64,000 nucleotides of DNA from an uncultured Bacteroidota bacterium (GTDB lineage: Bacteria; Bacteroidota; Bacteroidia; B-17B0; Aurantibacillaceae), in NCBI GenBank assembly GCA_937873155.1, contig CALMVZ010000011.1, positions 186,001 to 250,000 on the forward strand, in the 5' to 3' direction. Shown in pieces: positions 29,340-58,612 of this stretch. The notes beneath the pieces are model-generated. The model saw only the letters and a list, made by a program, of their open reading frames with translations. It did not search any database and was not told the origin of the DNA. Made by a program: the position numbers and the translations under genes. Numbering within the stretch: position 1 is the first letter of the stretch; each line of letters begins with the position of its first letter.

Positions 29340-29346
29340 TTATTAA

Positions 29347-29376
29347 ACGGCCGGTGTTGGTTCGTCGGCTGTTTTT
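29347..29376 (+). terminator. Rho-independent terminator after the macroglobulin gene
   Basis: Stem ACGGCCG (29347-29353) / CGGCTGT (29366-29372) with one G-T pair, followed by a run of five T. Confidence 0.8.
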
Positions 29377-29422: not shown

Positions 29423-31459
29423 ATGATACGCTCCATCTACCCAAAATTAATTTTCAGTCTGGCCTGTGCCGCACTTCTTTGTGCGTGTTCAGGCGGTGGA
29501 TTTGAGGTTGAGGACTTTGACCCGCTTTCTAATTATTCGGAAAAACAAAACGATACGCTTTACAGGATCAATGCTGATTTGACCGATGCTGTGTTGAACG
29601 GAATAGAAATTCCAACAAAACGGCAAACATATAATGGCTATTTTGTATTTACTTTTAAAGTAAAGAATACTTCCTCCGATATTAAAAAATACTATTATAA
29701 GATCTACTACCAAAATCAATCTTACAAGTTTTGCGATACAGTTCCTTTAGCTTATGAGAATTTTTATGGCAGCTGGGATGAAGGAGTGTACACTTTTAAA
29801 GCTACAAAGATCTTAAATCCCGGCGATGAAATTACTGTAAAAGATAGTTTTAAGATTGCCGGCAACCCCAGAAACGAACAATTATATTTCGGGCCGGATC
29901 CCGCCAAATACATTGCAATTGACGATTCCATAAGATCAAAAATGAATTTTGTCCGCTCCGTTCCGGGATGGATGAAAACTTGTACCGAAAAAGCAAAAGA
30001 ATTAGGCACTACTGTTGATGAACAGGTTTATGTAAATGCTTTATGGGGTATAAATTATGAAAAGCAACGGCTTAAAGAGGTAAACAATCGCTGGAAACGC
30101 AATCCACGAATGGGGACATATGAGTTCATGCTGGTAGTTACTTCTCCTGAAGATATCGGTAAGATCCCAATGGGAATCCGCGATATTCAGAAAAGCGATT
30201 CTGCCGGTAGATTTTTAAACCCATTTGGGTATTTCCTATTACAAGAAGGGAGAAATTTAAAGAACACATTTGTAATTTATTCTGATAAAAAATTAAAGGT
30301 ACGGTCCCAGTTAGATCTTGGGTCCGGAATTTACGTAGATAAATTAGGTATCAATAAATCACAATTCTCATTAGAAGCACTTAATAGCAATTGTAACAAC
30401 TCACCTTCCCTCTATAAAAAAGCACAATTCACTCAGTATTTTCACAATATTGATAAAGACTACACGGTTTATAATATCCCGGAGATCCGCGATGTAACAG
30501 GAGAAAATCTAACAAAGGCTGAGTACGATGAATTTCAGAAAAAATACGCTGACCCCAGATCACGGACAAAATTATTTGTAAGCACTTCCTACTTTCCGTG
30601 CAAAACTGTTATTTCAGATCCAAAGGCCAGGAAACTCACTATGATCGTTCCTGCCACTGAACCTGGTAATTATAAAAAAGAGCACGTTGGTCTTTCCTCA
30701 AGGATCGGATATACCTATGGAAAATTCAGGGCAAAAATCAAATTCCCAAAAATGTTAAGTAAAGATAATGTCTGGAACGGCATCACAAATGCGTTTTGGT
30801 TATTATTCCAGGAAGATTCCCCATGGAATTATCGCAGGAACTGCAACGGGAAAATCGGATATATTCCTAAAGCAGCGCCGAATAATGAAGAATCCGTAAA
30901 ACAAAGCAAAAAAAGCTTGTGTTATTCCGAGATCGATTTTGAGATCGTAAAAGAGTCCCGTTATTGGCCTAAGAGCTCTTATGCAAATACAAAAACACCT
31001 TTTAAATCGGAAAGTGGATTTGATGACAATATAATGGTCGCCTGTACAAATTGGGACATGGCCTGCAGCGAACCAAAGGATTTTTTGTTTGGCGCCAATG
31101 AATATTCCGTTGACAGTTCAAAATATTTGTTTCACCGCTGGAATTTTTTTCACCGTGCAATCTCTACCAAAATTCCGGTTAAGCACTCCGAAATTTTTGA
31201 CGCTCCGTATTATTATTTTGAAGTTGAATGGTTACCTGAAAAGATCGTTTGGAAGATCGGGCCCGAAAAAGACAAATTGCATGTTATTTGTACTATGAAT
31301 AAAGACCTTTCTGCCATACCAAACAACCAAATGATCTTAATGTTCACCCAGGAGTGGCATAATGAAGAATGGTGGCCGACAGCTCCGTTCAAACAAAATT
31401 TTATACCTTTCCCTAAAAAGGATATCATTGGTGAAATTTTAGAAATTGAAATTGAATAA
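29423..31459 (+). CDS. Lipoprotein with C-terminal GH16-like glycoside hydrolase domain
   Basis: A 678-residue protein with a lipobox (ALLCACSGG, Cys about residue 22). The N-terminal half (about 30-330) is beta-rich and unrecognised. From about residue 390 the features of family GH16 appear: SRIGYTYGKFRAKIKFP, NGITNAFWLLFQED and the catalytic motif E503-I-D505-F-E507 (GH16 consensus ExDxE), then HRWNFFHRAI and APYYYFEVEWLPEKIVWKIG. Both catalytic glutamates are present, so hydrolysis or transglycosylation of a beta-glucan or galactan is plausible. It lies 2 bases upstream of an AlgI-like acyltransferase and heads the polysaccharide-modification operon. Confidence 0.85.
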   Translation: MIRSIYPKLIFSLACAALLCACSGGGFEVEDFDPLSNYSEKQNDTLYRINADLTDAVLNGIEIPTKRQTYNGYFVFTFKVKNTSSDIKKYYYKIYYQNQSYKFCDTVPLAYENFYGSWDEGVYTFKATKILNPGDEITVKDSFKIAGNPRNEQLYFGPDPAKYIAIDDSIRSKMNFVRSVPGWMKTCTEKAKELGTTVDEQVYVNALWGINYEKQRLKEVNNRWKRNPRMGTYEFMLVVTSPEDIGKIPMGIRDIQKSDSAGRFLNPFGYFLLQEGRNLKNTFVIYSDKKLKVRSQLDLGSGIYVDKLGINKSQFSLEALNSNCNNSPSLYKKAQFTQYFHNIDKDYTVYNIPEIRDVTGENLTKAEYDEFQKKYADPRSRTKLFVSTSYFPCKTVISDPKARKLTMIVPATEPGNYKKEHVGLSSRIGYTYGKFRAKIKFPKMLSKDNVWNGITNAFWLLFQEDSPWNYRRNCNGKIGYIPKAAPNNEESVKQSKKSLCYSEIDFEIVKESRYWPKSSYANTKTPFKSESGFDDNIMVACTNWDMACSEPKDFLFGANEYSVDSSKYLFHRWNFFHRAISTKIPVKHSEIFDAPYYYFEVEWLPEKIVWKIGPEKDKLHVICTMNKDLSAIPNNQMILMFTQEWHNEEWWPTAPFKQNFIPFPKKDIIGEILEIEIE

Positions 31460-31461
31460 CT

Positions 31462-32889
31462 ATGGTTTTTAGCAGCGTTGTTTTTTTAGTTTATTTTCTT
31501 CCGCTCTTTTTGCTGTTGTATTTTATTACTCCGGCAAAATTTAAAAATCTTGTTCTGCTTGGTTCCAGCATTTTCTTTTATGCATGGGGCGCTCCAAAAT
31601 TTATTTTTGTGATCCTTGGCACAACCACACTTGACTTCTACCTGGTAAAACTGATGTATTACGCGGAAGATACCAAAAAAAGAAAAACATTTTTAATTCT
31701 TTCGCTGTGTTTAAACGTGGGCCTTTTATTCTATTTCAAATATTGCAATTTCTTCATTGATAATATTAATTCAGTACTTGGCGCTTTTGGTTCGGCCGGG
31801 ATCAACTGGACACAGATCATTTTACCAATAGGCATTTCTTTTTATACGTTCGAAAGTATTACTTACGTTGTAGATTGCTACAGGCGTATTCATAAACCGT
31901 TGGATAATTTCTGGCAATATCAATTATATATTATATTATTCCCAAAATTAATTGCGGGGCCTATCATCCGTTATCATGAGATCCATGATCAGATCGCAGA
32001 CAGAAGTGCTAATGATACTATCGACAATAAATTGACGGGGTTCTATAGGTTTTGCCTGGGACTGGGAAAAAAAGTATTGATCGCGAATGTTCTTGCATTA
32101 AAAGCAGACGAAATATTTGCAATGCCTTCTGAAACCCTTTCTTCCTCTCTGGCATGGATCGGGATGTTAGCTTATACATTCCAGATCTATTTCGATTTCT
32201 CAGGTTATTCTGATATGGCAATTGGGATAGGAAAAATGATCGGGTTTAAATTCCCTGAAAATTTTGACAATCCCTATACTTCAAAAAGCATTACAGAATT
32301 TTGGAGACGCTGGCACATGACCTTAGGAAATTGGATGAAAAATTACTTATATATTCCATTAGGTGGCAATAAGGTCGATAACAAATTCAAATTGTATTTT
32401 AATCTTTGGCTTGTATTTATTGCTTCCGGCTTCTGGCATGGCGCGGCATGGACATTCATTATTTGGGGCGTTTACCACGGCATGTGGTTGGTGCTTGAAC
32501 GTGTTTTCTTAAATAAGTTCTATGCCAGGATCGGTGGTCTTGCCTCTACGGTCATCTGCTTTCTTTTAGTAGCAATCGGATGGATCTTCTTCAGAGCTGA
32601 AAAAACAAAAGACGCACTTGTATTTGTAAAAAAATTATTTGTTTTCGACTTTAAGCTTCCTGATCACTTCCTGGATAAAGAATTTATGTTCTATGGTATC
32701 CTTGCTATATTATTCTCATTTTGGACAAGTTTCAAAATTGGAAAAAAGATCCAGGACAAGGTCTATTCTTCTTATTACGGGATCAGCGGGAACTTTATTG
32801 CGGCGTTTTTTGCTTGTGTCCTGTTTACCGTTTCCCTGGCTTCTATTACATCATCAGGCTTTAACCCATTTATATATTTCAGATTTTAA
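31462..32889 (+). CDS. AlgI-type MBOAT polysaccharide O-acyltransferase
   Basis: A 475-residue, many-spanning inner-membrane protein. Family landmarks are the start MVFSSVVFLVYFLPLF, the segment LPIGISFYTFESITYVVDCYR, FPKLIAGPIIRY, ITEFWRRWHMTLGNWM, and the catalytic-histidine motif SGFWHGAAWTFIIWG (His326). MBOATs of this group pass an acyl group, usually acetyl, across the membrane for attachment to an exopolysaccharide. The downstream AlgJ/AlgX-like genes would be the periplasmic acceptor proteins. The stop and next start overlap as TAATG. Confidence 0.95.
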   Translation: MVFSSVVFLVYFLPLFLLLYFITPAKFKNLVLLGSSIFFYAWGAPKFIFVILGTTTLDFYLVKLMYYAEDTKKRKTFLILSLCLNVGLLFYFKYCNFFIDNINSVLGAFGSAGINWTQIILPIGISFYTFESITYVVDCYRRIHKPLDNFWQYQLYIILFPKLIAGPIIRYHEIHDQIADRSANDTIDNKLTGFYRFCLGLGKKVLIANVLALKADEIFAMPSETLSSSLAWIGMLAYTFQIYFDFSGYSDMAIGIGKMIGFKFPENFDNPYTSKSITEFWRRWHMTLGNWMKNYLYIPLGGNKVDNKFKLYFNLWLVFIASGFWHGAAWTFIIWGVYHGMWLVLERVFLNKFYARIGGLASTVICFLLVAIGWIFFRAEKTKDALVFVKKLFVFDFKLPDHFLDKEFMFYGILAILFSFWTSFKIGKKIQDKVYSSYYGISGNFIAAFFACVLFTVSLASITSSGFNPFIYFRF

Positions 32890-34355
32890 TGGGGGGTGTA
32901 AAAACATATAAGACCGGCTTGTTGTTAGGCATTTTGCTTTTTCTTTTTATTCCTCTAATGCAAAATATACTTCACTTCAAATTGATCAAGCCTTTAAAGG
33001 GTGCTTATGATATAATTGATGATGTTGAACTTTCGAAAGAAGGATGGTTAGAAGGTGATTATCAAATAAAAAAAGAAAAATTCCTCGATCAGAATTTCGG
33101 GTTAAGGAATGATTATGTCAGGTTGAATAATCAATTGGATTTTACCCTTTTCAAAAAAGCAAACGTAAAAAAACTTGTGGTTGGTAAAAGAGATTTTCTT
33201 TTTGAGGACGATTACATAAATGCTTACTATGGAAATAATTTTGTTGGTGAAAAACCATTAGATGAAAGGTTTAAAAAACTAAAGGCGGTTCAGGATGTGC
33301 TGTTCGCTCAAGGCATTTTACTGGAGGTAGTATTTGCCCCGGGGAAAGCTACTTTTTATCCGGAATTCATTCCAGACAGCTGGCAGTACGAAAAAAAACT
33401 AAGTAATTATGAATACGCTGTAAAAAAATGCAAGGATAATAAGATCGACTATATTGATTTCAATGACTGGTTCCTAAAACAAAAAAATATTTCCCCTTAT
33501 GATCTTTATCCGAAAACCGGAATACATTGGAGTAATTATGGTGCTATGCTCGCTATAGATTCTATAAAAACACATATTGAATTAAGATCACAGCTTATTT
33601 TACGGGATTTTACTATCGATAATATTTTTTTCTCAGACTCTTTACTTAGCCCTGATAATGATATTGGGGAGGCGATGAATTTACTGTCAGATGTTCCCGT
33701 TTTACCCATGCCTTATGCCAATTACCGTTGGGTCGAAAATAATTTGGCTATTAAACCTAAAGCATTGTTCATTGGGGATAGTTATTTCTGGAATATTTAT
33801 TACCAGGGGTTTACCAATAATTTCTTTACGGATTGTAAATTTTGGTATTATAATGAGACTGTATATCCTGAAGATGCGCCTGAAAGAGATGTAAAAAAAT
33901 TAAATCTTGCCGAAGAACTGACTAAGTTTAAAGTTATTGTTTTAATGGCAACAGAATGTAATATCCATGATATTGGCTGGGGTTTCATTGAAAAGGTTTA
34001 TGATCTTAACAAAGAAGATATGAACGGATCAATGCGGAAGCGTATTTATGTGGGTTTAATAATTGAGAATATTAAACAGAACAAAGAGTGGTTAGCAGAT
34101 ATTGAAAAGAAAGCTAAAGAAAAAAACATTAGTATTCCTGAAATGATAACACTGGATGCAATATATATATACAAAACTGAATATTGTACGCCTGAAGTTA
34201 CTGCACTCGTCGATCAAAACATCGAAAGAATACGAAATACCAAAGCATGGATGGATGATATTCTGAAAAAAGCTTTAGAAAAAAATGTAAGTATGGATGA
34301 AATGATCGAAATGGATGCTAAATACATTTACGATACTGAACAGAAAAATAAATAA
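32889..34355 (+). CDS. AlgJ/AlgX-like SGNH protein with tail repeats (first copy)
   Basis: A 488-residue protein with an N-terminal membrane anchor (about residues 10-30) and a periplasmic SGNH-like domain. The Ser motif is LFIGDSYFW and the His motif is GIHWSNYGAM. In AlgJ/AlgX the histidine is normally preceded by Asp two residues earlier (TDTHW); here that position is Gly. The C-terminal ~100 residues hold two copies of a ~40-residue unit of the form W(L/M)xDIxKKAxEKNxSxxEMIxxDAxYIY. It probably receives acyl groups from the MBOAT and passes them to a surface glycan. A paralogue follows. Confidence 0.85.
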   Translation: MGGVKTYKTGLLLGILLFLFIPLMQNILHFKLIKPLKGAYDIIDDVELSKEGWLEGDYQIKKEKFLDQNFGLRNDYVRLNNQLDFTLFKKANVKKLVVGKRDFLFEDDYINAYYGNNFVGEKPLDERFKKLKAVQDVLFAQGILLEVVFAPGKATFYPEFIPDSWQYEKKLSNYEYAVKKCKDNKIDYIDFNDWFLKQKNISPYDLYPKTGIHWSNYGAMLAIDSIKTHIELRSQLILRDFTIDNIFFSDSLLSPDNDIGEAMNLLSDVPVLPMPYANYRWVENNLAIKPKALFIGDSYFWNIYYQGFTNNFFTDCKFWYYNETVYPEDAPERDVKKLNLAEELTKFKVIVLMATECNIHDIGWGFIEKVYDLNKEDMNGSMRKRIYVGLIIENIKQNKEWLADIEKKAKEKNISIPEMITLDAIYIYKTEYCTPEVTALVDQNIERIRNTKAWMDDILKKALEKNVSMDEMIEMDAKYIYDTEQKNK

Positions 34356-34383
34356 TAGTTCTTCCTTTTGATCTCAGGTTAGA

Positions 34384-35991
34384 ATGCAGAAAGATAAAAT
34401 ATATAAAACAGCTTTACTTTCTGCCATCCTTGCCTTCCTGTTCTTTCCGGTTATACAACAACAGTTTAAGTTTGTAAATCTTAAACCTCTTAGCGGAGCG
34501 TACATTCCAAAGAACTACTGTTCTTTTTCGCCAGAGTCATGGTTAAATGAATCTTACCAGAACAATACAAATGATTATTTGAATGAGAATTTCGGGTTTC
34601 GGAATTTTTTGGTAACACTTAATGGCCAATTAAGATTTTCATTGTTCAATAAAGGACTTCTTAAAGTGGTGGTTGGAAAAGAGAACCATCTTTTCATTTC
34701 AGATTATATTGAAACCTACTACGGTAAAGATTTTTCAGAAGCTCATATTAATGACACCATCAGTAAACTCAAATTTCTTAATGATACACTTCGGTCACTT
34801 GGTAAAACCCTCCTGGTAGTTCTGGCACCAAACAAAGCGCGTGTTTATCCTGAATTCATTCCTGACTATCTTAAACAGGAAGTAACTGATAAAACTAACT
34901 ATAGTGCGCTTTTAAAAGGCTTTAAAAATTCAGGGATTCATTATTTAGATTTTAATCAGGACTTTATAAACAAGAAAAGATCTTCTCCCTATTTATTATT
35001 TTCACAGCTTGGTACTCATTGGAGTCGCCTGGAAGCTTTACGGTCTGTTGATTCCATAATGGGTTACCTATCGTGGTTAACCCAAACGAATTTACCCCGT
35101 ATTCGTATTAAAAAGGTCTTTTTAAAGGATTCTCTTGAATTTCCTGATGATGATATTGCAATTGGCATGAATATTTTATTTTGTCCGGCTCATGATAAAA
35201 TGGCATACCCGGAATTTGAATATGATACCGAAAACAAGGTCAAAAAAAATGTACTTGTGGTGGGCGATAGTTATTGGCAGGATATTTATTTCAGAGAAAT
35301 CCCCAAACATCTTTTCGCCACTAACGAATATTGGTATTTTAGTAAATCCAGTTTTGGGAATTTTTATTTTGGGACCAAAGAGATTAGCAACAGAGATGTT
35401 GTCCGGACAATTTTACAGAACGATCTTATAATAATAGTTTGTTCTGAAAGTAACTTTAGAAATTTAGGTTTTGGATTTGCAGGAGCCGCTTATAGCGCCA
35501 TGAAACGGCCCGTTTATCCAACAGTTAATGAAATTAAGAAATTAAAGCAAATAATAAGAGACAATAACAATTGGATAAAAGAAGTGGAGCTAAAAGCTCT
35601 TAAAAGAAACATAAGCGTTGATTCTATGCTTTCTGAAGATGCTGCCTGGGCTTTTTATCACTACGGACCCGTTCGATTAAAAAAGACAGTTTATGATATA
35701 AAAGAAGAGATGCGGAAAAATAATGTCTGGATGAATGAGATAAGATCAAAAGCAGAAAAAAGGAATATAAGCATTGATTCTATGATGACCCTTGATGCAA
35801 TTTGGGCACACGAAACGTTGCCACCGGAAGAAAAAGAAACACGAAAACTTTCAGTAAACGATATAAAACATAAAATAAAAAACACCATTGAGTGGATGAG
35901 TCAAATAAAAATCAAAGCGCGCGAAAAAAACATTTCTACCGATTCAATGGTAACACTTGATGCTATATGGTTTTATAATCACCAGGATTAG
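34384..35991 (+). CDS. AlgJ/AlgX-like SGNH protein with tail repeats (second copy)
   Basis: A 535-residue paralogue of the preceding protein, with the same layout: membrane anchor (about 8-26), the segment NYCSFSPESWLNESYQNN, SGNH motifs VVGDSYWQDIYF and LGTHWSRLEAL (again Gly rather than Asp before the histidine pair), and a longer repetitive tail with three units of W(I/M)xxxxxKAxxRNISxDSMxxxDAxW. Sequence identity between the two copies is moderate, so the duplication is old. The paired copies suggest two acceptor steps or a heteromeric complex with the MBOAT. It is the last gene of the operon. Confidence 0.85.
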   Translation: MQKDKIYKTALLSAILAFLFFPVIQQQFKFVNLKPLSGAYIPKNYCSFSPESWLNESYQNNTNDYLNENFGFRNFLVTLNGQLRFSLFNKGLLKVVVGKENHLFISDYIETYYGKDFSEAHINDTISKLKFLNDTLRSLGKTLLVVLAPNKARVYPEFIPDYLKQEVTDKTNYSALLKGFKNSGIHYLDFNQDFINKKRSSPYLLFSQLGTHWSRLEALRSVDSIMGYLSWLTQTNLPRIRIKKVFLKDSLEFPDDDIAIGMNILFCPAHDKMAYPEFEYDTENKVKKNVLVVGDSYWQDIYFREIPKHLFATNEYWYFSKSSFGNFYFGTKEISNRDVVRTILQNDLIIIVCSESNFRNLGFGFAGAAYSAMKRPVYPTVNEIKKLKQIIRDNNNWIKEVELKALKRNISVDSMLSEDAAWAFYHYGPVRLKKTVYDIKEEMRKNNVWMNEIRSKAEKRNISIDSMMTLDAIWAHETLPPEEKETRKLSVNDIKHKIKNTIEWMSQIKIKAREKNISTDSMVTLDAIWFYNHQD

Positions 35992-52274: not shown

Positions 52275-53363
52275 ATGTCGAAAGTTGCATTAATTACCGG
52301 AGTTACCGGACAAGACGGCGCCTATTTGGCCGAATTATTACTAAATAAAGGTTATAATGTGCACGGGGTTAAGCGCCGCAGCTCAATGTTCAATACCGAC
52401 AGGATCGATCATCTATACCAGGACCTTCACGAAAAGAACGTGAATTTTAAATTACATTACGGCGACCTAACTGATAGTACTAATCTTATCCGAATCATCC
52501 AGGAAGTGCAGCCGGATGAGATCTATAATTTGGCAGCACAATCCCACGTAAAAGTAAGTTTTGAAACCCCCGAATATACTGCGAATGCTGATGCGGTTGG
52601 CGCCCTGAGAATTTTAGAGGCTATCCGTATTTTAAAGCTTGAGAAAAAGACAAAGTTCTACCAGGCAGGCACTTCAGAAATGTTTGGTTTGGTACAAGAG
52701 ATCCCGCAAAAGGAAACTACTCCTTTTTATCCAAGAAGTCCATATGGTGTTGCCAAAGTTTATGCTTACTGGATCACCAAAAATTATCGTGAAGCTTATG
52801 GCATGTTCGCTTCGAACGGAATTTTGTTCAATCACGAAAGTCCGGTACGCGGAGAAACATTTGTGACAAGAAAAATTACACGTGCTGCTGCAAAAATTAG
52901 TTTAGGCATGCAGGAAAAATTATTTTTAGGAAACCTCGATGCCGAACGTGATTGGGGACATGCACAGGATTACGTAGAAGGTATGTGGATGATGTTGCAG
53001 CAAAAAGAAGCCGATGATTTTGTTTTAGCAACCGGAATAAAGATAACAGTGCGGAAATTTGTGGAGATGTCTTTCGGAGAAGTTGGAATTATTCTCGAGT
53101 GGAAAGGTGAAGCCGAAAAAGAAAAAGGCTACAATAAAGCAACAGGAAAAGCCATCGTTGAGATCGATGAAAAATATTACCGTCCTGCTGAAGTTGATCT
53201 CCTGGTTGGGGATTCGTCTAAGGCAAGAAAAGTTTTAGGATGGAAACCAAAACGCACTGTTGAGCAGCTTTGCAAAGAAATGGTGGCCAGCGATCTTGAA
53301 TTATTCAAGCGTGATAAATATTTGCTGGAAGGCGGTCATAAAGTTTTAAATTATAAAGAATAA
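52275..53363 (+). CDS. gmd: GDP-mannose 4,6-dehydratase
   Basis: Converts GDP-mannose to GDP-4-keto-6-deoxymannose. The 362-residue short-chain dehydrogenase has the NADP motif [15 protein letters not shown] (residues 9-23), [17 protein letters not shown], the catalytic YxxxK in [18 protein letters not shown] and [19 protein letters not shown]. It is followed after 5 bases by fcl, so the pair makes GDP-L-fucose. A TAATATTG -7-like box lies at 52232-52239. Confidence 0.97.
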
Positions 53364-53368
53364 TTTCT

Positions 53369-54310
53369 GTGGAACTTAATTCCAAAATATATATTGCCGG
53401 TCATCGTGGAATGGTGGGCTCTGCTATCCATCGTAATTTAGAAAAGCAAGGCTTTAAGAATATTATCACAAGAACTTCAGAAGAGCTTGACCTGAGAAAC
53501 CAGAAAGCCGTTTCTGATTTTTTTTCAAAAGAAAAACCTGAATATGTTTTTTTAGCTGCAGCGAAAGTTGGCGGCATCCAGGCGAATAACACTTACCGTG
53601 CGGATTTTATTTATGAGAATTTAATGATCCAGAATAATGTGGTTCATTCGTCTTACGTGAACGGCGTTAAAAAATTAATGTTCCTCGGCTCATCTTGTAT
53701 TTATCCGAAGCTTGCGCCTCAACCATTAAAAGAAGAATATTTATTGACAGGTCTTTTAGAAGACACTAATGAACCATACGCAATCGCTAAAATTGCAGGT
53801 ATAAAATTATGTGAGTCTTATAAACGTCAGTATGGCTGCGATTTTATTTCAGTAATGCCAACGAATTTGTACGGGCCGAATGACAATTACAATTTAAATA
53901 ATTCGCATGTGTTACCTGCTTTGATCCGTAAATTTCATGACGCAAAAGAAAGTAATTCGCCTTTTGTAGAAATGTGGGGAACAGGAAAACCAATGCGTGA
54001 ATTTTTACACGCCAACGACATGGCAGATGCCTGTGTTTTCCTGATGAATAATTATTCAGGAGAGAAAATTGTAAATATCGGAACGGGAACTGACCTTACT
54101 ATAAAAGATCTCGCCTTGCTCATCAAAAAAATTGTAGGTTATACAGGAGAAATAAAACACGACCTGAGCAAACCGGACGGAACGCCAAGAAAATTAATGG
54201 ATGTAAGTTTTTTACACAGCCTTGGCTGGAAACACAAAATTGAATTGGAAGACGGCATCAGGGCCGTTTATGATGACTTCCGTAAAAAAGAAGGCGTTAA
54301 GGTTTGGTGA
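53369..54310 (+). CDS. fcl: GDP-L-fucose synthase
   Basis: Epimerises and reduces GDP-4-keto-6-deoxymannose to GDP-L-fucose. The 313-residue protein starts at GTG (53369). It has [34 protein letters not shown], the [12 protein letters not shown] motif and the [20 protein letters not shown] catalytic helix, all diagnostic. With gmd it supplies fucose for a surface polysaccharide or glycoprotein. Confidence 0.97.
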
Positions 54311-54328
54311 GATAAATGAAAAATGCAG

Positions 54329-54346
54329 TCCCGATAGCTATCGGGA
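54329..54346. repeat. Palindrome TCCCGATAGCTATCGGGA (second copy)
   Basis: An 18-base perfect palindrome between fcl and the next gene, same family as 45394-45413. It may terminate or slow transcription. Confidence 0.75.
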
Positions 54347-54372
54347 TAAAAAATAAGAATTTAAAATTATAA

Positions 54373-55932
54373 ATGTTAGTGATCCCTTCCCGTTTAATAT
54401 TTGGTTTATCATTCTTAATTTTTCATTTTTCATTTTTCATTTCTAAGGCGCAATTTTACAATTTGCCCAACGACTATTCATACGGGTTATTAACTGAGCG
54501 CGCTTTAGCCGAAAAGGACTCTTCCATACACTCTTCGCTTAAACCTTATATTCATTTTTTCTCCGATAAATACAAACATGTTGCAGACACCCATCGTGTG
54601 TTCAAATTCATTAATGACGATCCGATCATAGATAAAGTTTTTAATGAAGATCTTTTGCTTGTAAAATCGAAAGAAAAAAAATTTCTTCTCCGTGTTGATC
54701 CATTATTAAATTTTGAATTCGGACGCGATACAGAAGACACTTTGCAGCGCAGGCTTTATACAAACACCCGCGGTTTTATTGCAAGTGGCGCTATTGGAAA
54801 AGATTTTTATTTTGAAACTATGCTCTCAGAAAATCAGGCTGTATTTCCGAATTACATTGAAACCTATAACCGGAATACAGGTATAGTTCCCGGACAAGGT
54901 CGTTGGAAAACATTTAAATCACGAGGGTTCGACTACGCTTTTTCTTCAGGATTTTTTTCTTATCAGCCATGTAAGAACTTAAACATTCAGGCAGGTCATG
55001 GTAAACAAAAAGTCGGACAAGGTTACCGTTCTTTATTGTTAAGCGATAATTCATTTAATTATCCTTATGCAAGAATTACGCAACAGTGGTTCAAAGGCCG
55101 TGTGCAATACACAAATATCTACGCTTCCTTCATGAATTTGCGTTCGGCCAGTGAAAAGATCGTTCCGAACACAGAGCGGATTTTCCAGAAAAAAGCAGCT
55201 TCGTTCCAGTATCTTAGTTTAAATTTCACCAAGTGGTTGAATTTAGGATTCTTTCAGGGTCTGATCTGGCAGGTAGCCGATAAAAACAATGTTCAACATT
55301 TCGAGTGGCAGTATGTTAACCCGGTAATTTTTACAAATCTCGCTTCTTATGGTTTAAATAATAAGAATAATATCCTGATCGGGGCTGACCTCAATATTAA
55401 GATCACAAACCGCATCAGTGTATACGGACAGTTCATGGCGGATGACCTGAGTAATACCCGCACAATCGGAAATGGTTTGGGTTACCAGGCGGGAATCAAA
55501 TATTTCAACGCATTTAAAGTGAAAAATTTGTTTTTACAGGCAGAATATAACGATGTGAGTGAAAGTTCTTATACCAGTCCGATCACTGATACCTCTAATC
55601 AATCCTATTCTCATTATAATCAGAACATAGCATACACCCCGGGTTATGGAAAAGAATTTGTAGGAATGGCGGACTATAAATTCCGCCGCATTTCATTTAA
55701 CGCACGGTACAATTACCAGTATTATACTTATCTGAATAACGGTTTTTATTCTAACCAATATGTGAATTTAAGGTTGGGATATACTATAAATCCTGCTTAT
55801 AATACAAACATCAGCTTAGGATTATCTTACAGGACACAGGATTATTTTGGCTTTACAGTACCGAATACTAAAACGGCTTACGTATATTTAATGTTTAAAA
55901 CGAGTTTATTTAATAATTACTACGACTTTTAG
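54373..55932 (+). CDS. Outer-membrane beta-barrel protein, RemB/Wzi-like (first copy)
   Basis: A 519-residue protein with a signal peptide (to SKAQF, about residue 27) and an all-beta body rich in aromatic strand ends. The segment SIHSSLKPYIHFF and the barrel core GHGKQKVGQGYRSLLLSDNS recall the RemB gliding-associated and Wzi-like capsule-anchoring families of Bacteroidota. It ends SLFNNYYDF, a typical barrel terminus. It lies in a polysaccharide locus next to a WecA-like transferase, which favours a role in anchoring or exporting a surface glycan. The family name is tentative. Confidence 0.75.
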   Translation: MLVIPSRLIFGLSFLIFHFSFFISKAQFYNLPNDYSYGLLTERALAEKDSSIHSSLKPYIHFFSDKYKHVADTHRVFKFINDDPIIDKVFNEDLLLVKSKEKKFLLRVDPLLNFEFGRDTEDTLQRRLYTNTRGFIASGAIGKDFYFETMLSENQAVFPNYIETYNRNTGIVPGQGRWKTFKSRGFDYAFSSGFFSYQPCKNLNIQAGHGKQKVGQGYRSLLLSDNSFNYPYARITQQWFKGRVQYTNIYASFMNLRSASEKIVPNTERIFQKKAASFQYLSLNFTKWLNLGFFQGLIWQVADKNNVQHFEWQYVNPVIFTNLASYGLNNKNNILIGADLNIKITNRISVYGQFMADDLSNTRTIGNGLGYQAGIKYFNAFKVKNLFLQAEYNDVSESSYTSPITDTSNQSYSHYNQNIAYTPGYGKEFVGMADYKFRRISFNARYNYQYYTYLNNGFYSNQYVNLRLGYTINPAYNTNISLGLSYRTQDYFGFTVPNTKTAYVYLMFKTSLFNNYYDF

Positions 55933-57021
55933 ATGGAGCTTTTAATATTAGTTTTTATAACCTCATTTATTGTGGTGCTGTATTCTACCCCGGCGCTCAT
56001 TAAAGTGGCTATATTAAAAAACCTCATCGATCTTCCTTCTGAAGAGCGTAAGATCCATAAACGTGCTATTCCAACCATTGGGGGAATCATTATTTACGCG
56101 GCAACCTTGTTCTCCTTTTCGCTTTGGTATAACATTGAAGAATTACATGAATATTCATTGATCTATGAATCGGTGAAAGAATTTCAAATATTGATCGCTA
56201 CCAGCTTGGTATTATTCTTTGTGGGAGTTAAGGATGATATCATTGGAACAGCACCTGTAAAAAAGTTATTTGCGCATGTGGTGGTCGGCCTCATACTAAT
56301 TTTAATGGGTAAAATTCAGATAACAGGATTGCACGGTGTTTTTGGGATAGAAGAAATTCCGGATTGGGGAAGTATCTTCCTGTCACTTTTCACTTACATT
56401 GTTGTTGTTAATGCAATGAACTTAATTGATGGCGTTGACGGCCTTGCTGCGGGTGTAGGCTTCTTAGCAACTGTATTTTTTGGTACGTGGTTCGTGTTTG
56501 CTAATGAGTACACTTTAGCTTCTTTATCTTTTGCATTGGCCGGTTCTTTGCTCGGATTTTTAGTTTTCAACTTTTCTCCTGCTAAAATATTCATGGGGGA
56601 TTCGGGATCATTGATCATCGGGATGTTCATTTATGTTCTAAGCGCTGAGTTGATCGAATTTCCTGCTGATCGCTTGGATAATTTTTGGGTGAATGTTTCG
56701 AATCCGGTATTCGCTATAGCTGCACTTATTTATCCCTTAACAGATACCCTTCGGGTTTTTATTATCCGTGCCATAAAAGGCCAGTCTCCGTTCTCCGCCG
56801 ATAGAAATCACTTACATCACCGTTTGATCGATTGTGGTTATTCTCACACAAAAACCGTTATTATAATTTATCTCTTCACAATAATCACAGTTGGAGTCTC
56901 ATTATTAAGTTATTATATCAACACTACTTTATCACTGTTAGCCGTAATGGGCTGCAGCGGTATATTCATCCTCTGGGTGATTTTGGCTCATAAAGTTAAA
57001 ACGAATAAAGTTGAAGAATAG
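55933..57021 (+). CDS. WecA-type undecaprenyl-phosphate sugar-1-phosphate transferase
   Basis: Initiates synthesis of a surface glycan by loading a sugar phosphate onto undecaprenyl phosphate. The 362-residue membrane protein has about ten helices and the family motifs RKIHKRAIPTIGGIII, NAMNLIDGVDGLAAG (catalytic Asp pair region), FMGDSGSLIIG and DRNHLHHRL. It could be the GlcNAc-1-phosphate enzyme. The start directly abuts the previous stop, and the next gene begins 11 bases before it ends, so the three form an operon. Confidence 0.95.
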   Translation: MELLILVFITSFIVVLYSTPALIKVAILKNLIDLPSEERKIHKRAIPTIGGIIIYAATLFSFSLWYNIEELHEYSLIYESVKEFQILIATSLVLFFVGVKDDIIGTAPVKKLFAHVVVGLILILMGKIQITGLHGVFGIEEIPDWGSIFLSLFTYIVVVNAMNLIDGVDGLAAGVGFLATVFFGTWFVFANEYTLASLSFALAGSLLGFLVFNFSPAKIFMGDSGSLIIGMFIYVLSAELIEFPADRLDNFWVNVSNPVFAIAALIYPLTDTLRVFIIRAIKGQSPFSADRNHLHHRLIDCGYSHTKTVIIIYLFTIITVGVSLLSYYINTTLSLLAVMGCSGIFILWVILAHKVKTNKVEE

Positions 57022-58612
57022 ACCAGGCTTCATACTCATTCACTTTTTATTTATTTGTTCCCTTGGGTTCTCTCAATACGATCCGCAGGCACAAAATGTT
57101 TTTCTTGGGCCCGAAACACAACAGGTCATTGATGAATGGAACATAAAATATCCTTCAACCGACTTTCACAGCAGCTTCAAACCTTATGTAAGTTCCACAT
57201 TGACCGATTTCCGCGATTCCTGTGTTCCTTACAAGCATTTTCTTATAAAGAATTTCTTCCTGAGTAAAACGATGAATGAAGGCCCTCAAAAACGGAACCA
57301 ATTTAATTTTCAATTCTTACCTGTCTCCGATCTACAAACCGGTTATGATGTTCTTCAAAGTAAAAACGTGAATGAATTAGCCGGCGGGCTTTTTGCCAAA
57401 CTGAATATCAATAATGATTTTACAATTGCCGGAACCATACTCGGCGGAAATGTTACTTATCCTTATTTCACGAATGAGCTTGTAAAAAATAATATGCTCA
57501 TCCCAGGTTTAGGAATGGCCTACATGTCTTCCGATTCAAATTCTTATAATTATTCGAATTTCAGTGGATATGCTTCTTATTCTCCTAATAAGGTTTTTAA
57601 TTTACAATTGGGCAACGGCAAACATTTTATTGGAGATGGTTATCGCTCATTGTTATTATCTGATGTAGCTAACAATTATCCTTACTTCAGAATAAACGCC
57701 AATATCTGGCACATTCAATACAGCGTGTGGTACACATGGATGAAAGATCTTTCTAATTCAGGAGGGATTAAGAGTAAATTCCAGGATAAATACGCGACAA
57801 TGCATTATTTAAGCTGGAACGCTACCAAAGAGATCAATTTTTCTATTTACGAAAATGTGATCTGGCAGGGAACAGATACCAGCCGTGCGCGCGGATTTGA
57901 TCCTAATTATTTAAGCCCGGTGGTTTTTTATCGTCCGCAGGAATATTCTGTTGGTTCACCGGATAACGCTTTCATCGGATTAAATCTATCTGTTAAACTA
58001 TTCTCTTGCGTAAAACTTTACGGACAACTGGCATTAGATGAATTTTTCTTTAAAGAAATAAGAGCGCGTAACGGTTGGTGGGCAAATAAACAAGGCGCAC
58101 AGGCAGGGTTAAAATATATAAATGCATTTAAGATAAAAGGGCTCACGCTGCAAGCAGAATACAATGTTGTAAGGCCATATACTTATTCACACGGATCGGT
58201 GCCACAAAATTACGCGCATTACGGTCAGCCCCTTGCTCATCCATTCGGGGCCAATTTTAAAGAATACATGGGATTCATCTCTTACCGCAAGGGCCGTTTT
58301 ATGATAAGCGCGCAAGGATTGTCTGCTAAAATTGGTGTTGATAGTACAGGTTCGAATGTAGGACAAAATATTTTTCTATCGTACACAACAAGACCATTTG
58401 AATATGGACACAAGACCGGGCAAGGTGTTAAAACAACATTCATGCAAAGTGATCTAAGATTGACGTATTTCCTGATCCCACAAATGAATTTGAGATTAGA
58501 ATTGGGATATATCCAGCGCAGCTTTACGGATGCAAGAGGTTACGAATTACAAAATCCTTATATTTATTTTGGATTAAAAACATCCTTCTGGAATTTTTAC
58601 AGGGACTATTAG
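57011..58612 (+). CDS. Outer-membrane beta-barrel protein, RemB/Wzi-like (second copy)
   Basis: A 533-residue paralogue of the protein at 54373. It begins at TTG (57011), overlapping the WecA-like gene by 11 bases; no ATG or GTG follows before the signal peptide (to GFSQ, about residue 21). The shared features are FHSSFKPYV, the core GNGKHFIGDGYRSLLLSD and the aromatic end NFYRDY. The two barrels flank one transferase and probably belong to the same export or anchoring system. It ends overlapping recO. Confidence 0.75.
   Translation: MKNRPGFILIHFLFICSLGFSQYDPQAQNVFLGPETQQVIDEWNIKYPSTDFHSSFKPYVSSTLTDFRDSCVPYKHFLIKNFFLSKTMNEGPQKRNQFNFQFLPVSDLQTGYDVLQSKNVNELAGGLFAKLNINNDFTIAGTILGGNVTYPYFTNELVKNNMLIPGLGMAYMSSDSNSYNYSNFSGYASYSPNKVFNLQLGNGKHFIGDGYRSLLLSDVANNYPYFRINANIWHIQYSVWYTWMKDLSNSGGIKSKFQDKYATMHYLSWNATKEINFSIYENVIWQGTDTSRARGFDPNYLSPVVFYRPQEYSVGSPDNAFIGLNLSVKLFSCVKLYGQLALDEFFFKEIRARNGWWANKQGAQAGLKYINAFKIKGLTLQAEYNVVRPYTYSHGSVPQNYAHYGQPLAHPFGANFKEYMGFISYRKGRFMISAQGLSAKIGVDSTGSNVGQNIFLSYTTRPFEYGHKTGQGVKTTFMQSDLRLTYFLIPQMNLRLELGYIQRSFTDARGYELQNPYIYFGLKTSFWNFYRDY

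Follow-up and report, generated by a model that had tools for sequence, protein, structure and literature searches.

A very distant GH16-fold lipoprotein linked to MBOAT and ALGX genes in an uncultured Bacteroidota bacterium: a candidate module for editing and acylating the cell's own envelope polysaccharide

A glycan-cleaving enzyme encoded beside an MBOAT-SGNH acylation pathway is a theme already known from two systems. The alginate system (AlgL with AlgI, AlgJ, AlgF and AlgX; PMC4148444) combines a periplasmic polymer-cleaving enzyme with an MBOAT and two SGNH proteins, and the clostridial ccsZABHI operon (PMC7710045) combines a glycanase (CcsZ, of family GH5) with an MBOAT (CcsH) and an SGNH-type, DHHW/PatB1-like protein (CcsI). 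An MBOAT-SGNH relay of acyl groups across the inner membrane is also found in PatA/PatB and DltB/DltD (PMC12148441). Here we describe a four-gene operon of comparable content in the genome of an uncultured Bacteroidota bacterium (G000, family Aurantibacillaceae). The operon occupies positions 29423-35991 of the window, i.e. the whole stretch of 64,000 nucleotides that was analysed (C11:186001-250000), and it encodes a lipoprotein of GH16 fold, an MBOAT and two SGNH proteins of the ALGX family, ALGX1 and ALGX2 (Table 1). On balance, we favour the view that it is a module for editing and acylating the cell's own envelope polysaccharide after polymerisation, rather than one for nutrient uptake.

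The GH16-fold lipoprotein

A preliminary description of this DNA assigned the 678-aa lipoprotein to GH16, and in a profile search the assignment formally failed: the match to Pfam GH16 (PF00722) scored 19.6 bits (E 7e-4), below the curated cut-off of 22 bits, and the same model matched 13 out of 45 homologues at E<0.01 (best E 3.5e-5). No NCBIfam model matched the protein, and neither single-sequence nor profile searches found a match among PDB sequences. The sub-threshold Pfam result is nevertheless overturned by structure and profile-profile comparison. An AF2 model computed from a 45-row homologue alignment reached a pLDDT of 91.7, and when it was compared with the PDB by Foldseek, GH16 proteins made up 50 of the 50 matches listed (best E 2e-9, identity 9-15%); lichenases ranked first, then carrageenases, laminarinases and xyloglucan enzymes, and Crh5 was among the matches. 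Alignment by hhalign to 17 ordinary GH16 proteins from related genomes gave probabilities of 95-97% with the catalytic strands aligned. The motif E503-I-D-F-E507, which had been reported correctly to the residue, falls on the canonical EIDIME strand with a one-residue gap at the position of the beta-bulge residue, so that the strand has the form EXDXE without a bulge. The division into bulged and non-bulge catalytic strands is one of the earliest splits in the GH16 family (PMC6827312). Judged by the fold model and the alignments, the lipoprotein is a true, though very distant, GH16 protein of an apparently undescribed branch.

The protein is composed of an N-terminal domain (about residues 27-240) and a C-terminal GH16 domain (about 395-678). 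The N-terminal domain contains a helical insertion (153-220) that is missing in other clades, and in the profile-profile alignment long inserts flank the catalytic strand. Across 108 homologues that are ~36-70% identical to the window protein, these residues never change: E503, D505 and E507, which by analogy with GH16 would act as nucleophile, assisting residue and acid/base, respectively. Many further positions of the GH16 domain are fixed, and so are others in the N-terminal domain (N113, G147-N-P-R and R226-N-x-R). This pattern of conservation is what one would expect of a working enzyme, and since the three acids never vary, an active protein appears likelier than a degenerate one. As to copy number, genome G050 has two copies of the lipoprotein gene (C33, L152, and C3, L147), one in an operon and the other an orphan beside housekeeping genes.

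The lipobox cysteine, Cys22, is kept in 107 out of the 108 sequences. Surface-bound lipoproteins of Bacteroidetes have an acidic signal in the positions that directly follow the cysteine, of the C-x-K-(D/E)2 or S-D-D type (PMC5080379). In the window protein residues +2 to +6 are S-G-G-G-F, and Asp or Glu is found at these positions in 3-12% of cases among 107 homologues. Because the acidic export signal is absent, the lipoprotein probably resides on the periplasmic face of the outer membrane, and the word 'surface' in the preliminary description is not supported.

The acylation genes and their linkage to the GH16 gene

The MBOAT presents no difficulty: its score against PF03062 (109 bits, cut-off 27), its similarity to DltB chains (E 2e-30), two conserved histidines (His285 and His326) and the motifs WRRWH and FWHG all point unambiguously to an acyltransferase of the AlgI type, as had been proposed. 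ALGX1 and ALGX2 are 34% identical and score 56 bits each against ALGX (PF16822, cut-off 26.5); a profile of these proteins themselves matches AlgJ (E 5e-9), PatB1 and AlgX. The P-K and HW signatures are kept (P151, K153, H213 and W214). The earlier comparison with AlgJ and AlgX is thus borne out by the profile and by the retained Ser298, His213 and Lys153 of ALGX1, but the Ser-His-Asp triad with its DxH motif is replaced by GxH, as Gly211 occupies the position of the catalytic Asp and ALGX2 has the same GxHW. Of 48 relatives, nearly all have Gly at position 211, a third copy from the window's own genome among them, while Ser298 and His213 are invariant. Since Ser, His and Lys stay fixed, GxH looks like a trait of a subfamily and not like decay, and we speculate that one of two nearly invariant residues, D256 or D258, could stand in for the missing Asp in the putative acyl transfer.

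Downstream of the SGNH part no Pfam domain was found in ALGX1 or ALGX2. Their tails consist of a helical repeat of ~40 residues (W...I..KA..+NIS.D.M...DA.Y), present in 2 copies in ALGX1 and 3 in ALGX2. Two unrelated membrane proteins of GT-C-like type, encoded next to a UbiA gene of the same genome (L184:3463-5223 and L184:8374-10110), are also capped by this repeat, which may be a docking module shared by envelope-glycan enzymes. The genome also contains another MBOAT with a 313-aa partner (C11:13539-17080, L183), adjoining an ordinary GH16 gene (with EIDIME) that is read in the opposite direction.

The four open reading frames were confirmed where the preliminary description had placed them, all on the plus strand, with intergenic gaps of +2, -1 and +28 bp. 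Their order is conserved as well: among the 21 judgeable GH16 loci of the window's family, the window included, the MBOAT gene lies 0-12 bp downstream of the GH16 gene in 15, and an ALGX gene comes next wherever the flank is long enough. A second ALGX gene is optional, so 'twin' SGNH proteins describe the window and three other known cases (G004/L034, G007/L148 and G034/L154) rather than the family. Outside the family, 69 loci were compared; MBOAT is immediately downstream in 7, on the same strand in 21, ALGX is present in 27 and either of the two, on the same strand, in 34. By chance alone, the 1.27 Mb searched should contain about 1.6 MBOAT genes (from 6 MBOAT genes per 4.85 Mb); the excess carries no formal P value since the loci are mutually related. 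The linkage recurs, with the genes rearranged, in other taxonomic orders. Several loci have altered gene orders, such as MBOAT-ALGX-GH16 (L043), ALGX-GH16-MBOAT (L045) and MBOAT-ALGX-c1-GH16 (L080), with further cases in L085 and L104. Because the order is shuffled between loci, the comparison of gene orders argues that the linkage is maintained by selection and not by ancestry alone.

The lipoprotein family is present in 25 out of 87 genomes of the order and in 32 out of 120 relatives, and matches in the GTDB collection are nearly all metagenome assemblies. Among 296 genomes sampled evenly across the phylum, the window's own gave the only full match, the others being weak and partial, and a role across the phylum was dropped for this reason.

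The operon probably starts at the lipoprotein gene, because a terminator-like stem-loop lies 3' of the upstream alpha-2-macroglobulin-like (A2M) gene; the stem is a weak indication, as the number of terminators in the scan was not above that in shuffled sequences. The A2M gene, which is the syntenic upstream neighbour in part of the window's family, is probably a separate transcript. On the other side, dxs follows 104 bp downstream of ALGX2, the last gene of the operon.

Table 1. Positions of the operon genes, sequence elements and upstream neighbour in the window
Feature	Position	Strand	Basis
GH16-fold lipoprotein, 678 aa	29423..31459	+	lipobox Cys22, fold model, profile-profile alignment
Catalytic motif E503-I-D-F-E507	30929..30943	+	conservation in 108 homologues, hhalign
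MBOAT O-acyltransferase, DltB/AlgI type, 475 aa	31462..32889	+	PF03062, DltB matches, motifs
ALGX1, N-terminally anchored periplasmic SGNH protein, 488 aa	32889..34355	+	PF16822, AlgJ/PatB1/AlgX matches
Repeat-bearing C-terminal tail of ALGX1	34056-34340		
ALGX2, second SGNH protein, 535 aa	34384..35991	+	PF16822, GxHW motif as in ALGX1
Repeat-bearing C-terminal tail of ALGX2	35540-35985		
Terminator-like stem-loop, 12 pairs	29345..29374	+	consensus match only
Alpha-2-macroglobulin-like (A2M) protein, 2073 aa	23118..29339	+	upstream neighbour

A proposed role and its alternatives

In the mechanism that we propose, an acyl group (probably an acetyl) would be carried across the inner membrane by the MBOAT and handed to a polysaccharide in the periplasm by the two SGNH proteins, which are anchored in that membrane, and the GH16 lipoprotein would cleave or transglycosylate the same beta-linked polymer from the outer membrane. 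The polymer would be the cell's own, built by genes elsewhere, because the GH16 gene also stands alone and because its neighbours in relatives include ligase, flippase and glycosyltransferase genes. In one genus of the window's family, the GH16 gene is located between a gene of the Wzy_C O-antigen ligase type and one for a GT-C-like membrane protein (L143 and L144), in L144 also near a UbiA/HAD/GT-C cluster. Other relatives have a Polysacc_synt flippase, GT2, PMT-type transferases or an LtaS-like sulfatase-fold protein as neighbours (the label 'LtaS-like' denotes a Sulfatase match with N-terminal membrane segments). These are polymer-building contexts. No polymerising glycosyltransferase was found among the operon genes or flanking open reading frames, nor a polymerase in the window. 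The statement that the window has no synthase was correct but incomplete, as a small polysaccharide cluster is found 16-23 kb downstream of the operon (window 52275-58612), with Gmd, Fcl, a GT4-type initiating transferase and two Wzi-like capsule assembly proteins, the first assigned by resemblance only and the second by a sub-cut-off Pfam match. These neighbourhoods and the solitary GH16 genes make the idea of a 'self-contained' unit doubtful, and a 'beta-glucan or galactan' as substrate was a guess that no finding here fixes.

Two further neighbours were considered in the Bacteroidales. The membrane-anchored protein c1 (jellyroll and beta-propeller) is encoded directly upstream of GH16 in many loci; it was dropped as a universal partner, there being no full-length c1 in the window's family, and its best fold matches (KICSTOR and DDB1 propellers) are generic for beta-propellers. 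In many loci a protein of ~1470 aa (cluster c6; L053:3729-8150 and relatives) is found between ALGX and c1-GH16, with a type IX secretion system (T9SS) sorting tail and a papain-like CGQS...H pattern.

Several points weigh against the proposed role. The chief doubt is that the GH16 half and the MBOAT-ALGX half each also occur alone: GH16 lacks MBOAT and ALGX in 6 of the 21 family loci (L143-L147 and L158) and, outside the family, in about one locus out of two, so the partnership is optional, and MBOAT-ALGX pairs without GH16 occur across the order. A second pair in the window's own genome (C10:353388-356117, L125:8389-11117) has neither GH16 nor synthase beside it. Furthermore, ALGX1 and ALGX2 lack the DxH Asp that AlgJ requires for acetylation in vivo (PMC4148444). 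Finally, the absence of an export signal was judged by the signal of other Bacteroidetes, uncalibrated in this lineage because its genome has no SusD.

The alternative that survives best is a sub-case of the proposed role, namely that the GH16 protein does not trim the acylated polymer as a hydrolase but joins or anchors it as a transglycosylase. We regard this as possible but doubtful. GH16 transglycosylases of the XTH type have the same non-bulge EXDXE strand (PMC6827312), Crh5 is among the fold matches, and the lipid anchor, the unusual conserved N-terminal domain and the long inserts around the catalytic strand would fit. However, no sequence feature was found that separates hydrolysis from transfer, and lichenases with the same strand score higher. 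A more elaborate version, which we offer as an unlikely speculation, is that a periplasm-facing GH16 transglycosylase and an Asp-less GxH MBOAT-SGNH relay together finish and anchor an acylated envelope polysaccharide that comes from a separate Wzy/GT-C pathway.

It is also rather unlikely, in our opinion, that the genes share a transcript but serve two separate functions, GH16 acting with other partners (c1 in other orders) and MBOAT-ALGX on an unrelated polymer. The position of c1 immediately upstream of GH16 in most loci outside the window's family and the stand-alone MBOAT-ALGX pair just mentioned are in line with this, as are the A2M-GH16 loci without MBOAT (L145 and L146) and the related ALGX proteins in every one of the order's 62 good genomes, most of which are without this GH16. 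The spacing of 0-12 bp and the repeated re-linkage in shuffled orders speak against it.

That the protein is a surface lipoprotein which breaks down beta-glucan or galactan from the environment, and that the acyltransferases have no part in this, seems improbable. Characterised bacterial GH16 enzymes are mostly degradative, and two ordinary GH16 genes are found elsewhere in the same genome, but the lipoprotein lacks an export signal, its relatives have biosynthetic neighbours, and no SusD was found anywhere in the genome (SusC was not searched for). For lack of a SusD, the operon was dropped as a polysaccharide utilisation locus, which is defined by a SusC/SusD pair. It is likewise improbable that the protein has no catalytic activity and serves only for binding or as a scaffold, since its 9-15% identity to any enzyme and its score below the Pfam cut-off are set against three catalytic acids that do not vary in 108 sequences.

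Bacteroidota are usually read as polysaccharide eaters, and for a GH16 lipoprotein a catabolic annotation comes readily. The present family points instead to the making and finishing of a glycan for the cell's own envelope, and does so in lineages represented almost entirely by metagenome assemblies. It also makes two things accessible: a remote GH16 branch whose active site is strictly conserved, and SGNH acyltransferases of a subfamily without the textbook Asp, in which the need for this residue becomes testable.

Comparison with known systems

The general features of the locus can be compared with several described systems. Succinoglycan ExoK, a GH16 endoglycanase, edits an acyl-substituted exopolysaccharide made by the same cell, as is proposed for the lipoprotein here; it differs in being secreted and part of a full synthesis cluster, and the succinoglycan acylation proteins are not known to be of the MBOAT-SGNH type. 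Secondly, the alginate system (PMC4148444) shares AlgJ-like anchoring and the P-K and HW signatures with the window's ALGX proteins, but its cleaving enzyme, AlgL, is a lyase, a carbohydrate-binding module is part of AlgX where no Pfam domain was found in ALGX1 or ALGX2, the DxH Asp is present, helical tail repeats are absent, and a synthase and a porin are part of the operon. Thirdly, ccsZABHI (PMC7710045) contains a GT2 synthase, CcsA, together with CcsB, its glycanase belongs to GH5, and its Gram-positive host has no outer membrane. With no polymerising glycosyltransferase in it, the window's operon falls outside the synthase-containing exopolysaccharide type (alg/wss/ccs). PatA/PatB and DltB/DltD (PMC12148441) act on peptidoglycan or teichoic acid and have no linked GH16. 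Among GH16 enzymes, the lipoprotein shares the non-bulge EXDXE strand and the jelly-roll fold with GH16_20/GH16_21 (XTH/lichenase; PMC6827312), from which it is set apart by 9-15% identity, an extra N-terminal domain, a lipobox, large inserts and a score below the Pfam cut-off.

The preliminary description had suggested that the combination might be undescribed. We likewise found no description of GH16 with MBOAT-ALGX in the open-access literature, which the almost wholly metagenomic origin of the family may explain, but the underlying theme is that of alginate and ccsZABHI. What is new is the GH16 type, its form as a lipoprotein whose N-terminal domain is conserved, the absence of a synthase, the GxH subfamily of SGNH proteins and their helical tail repeats.

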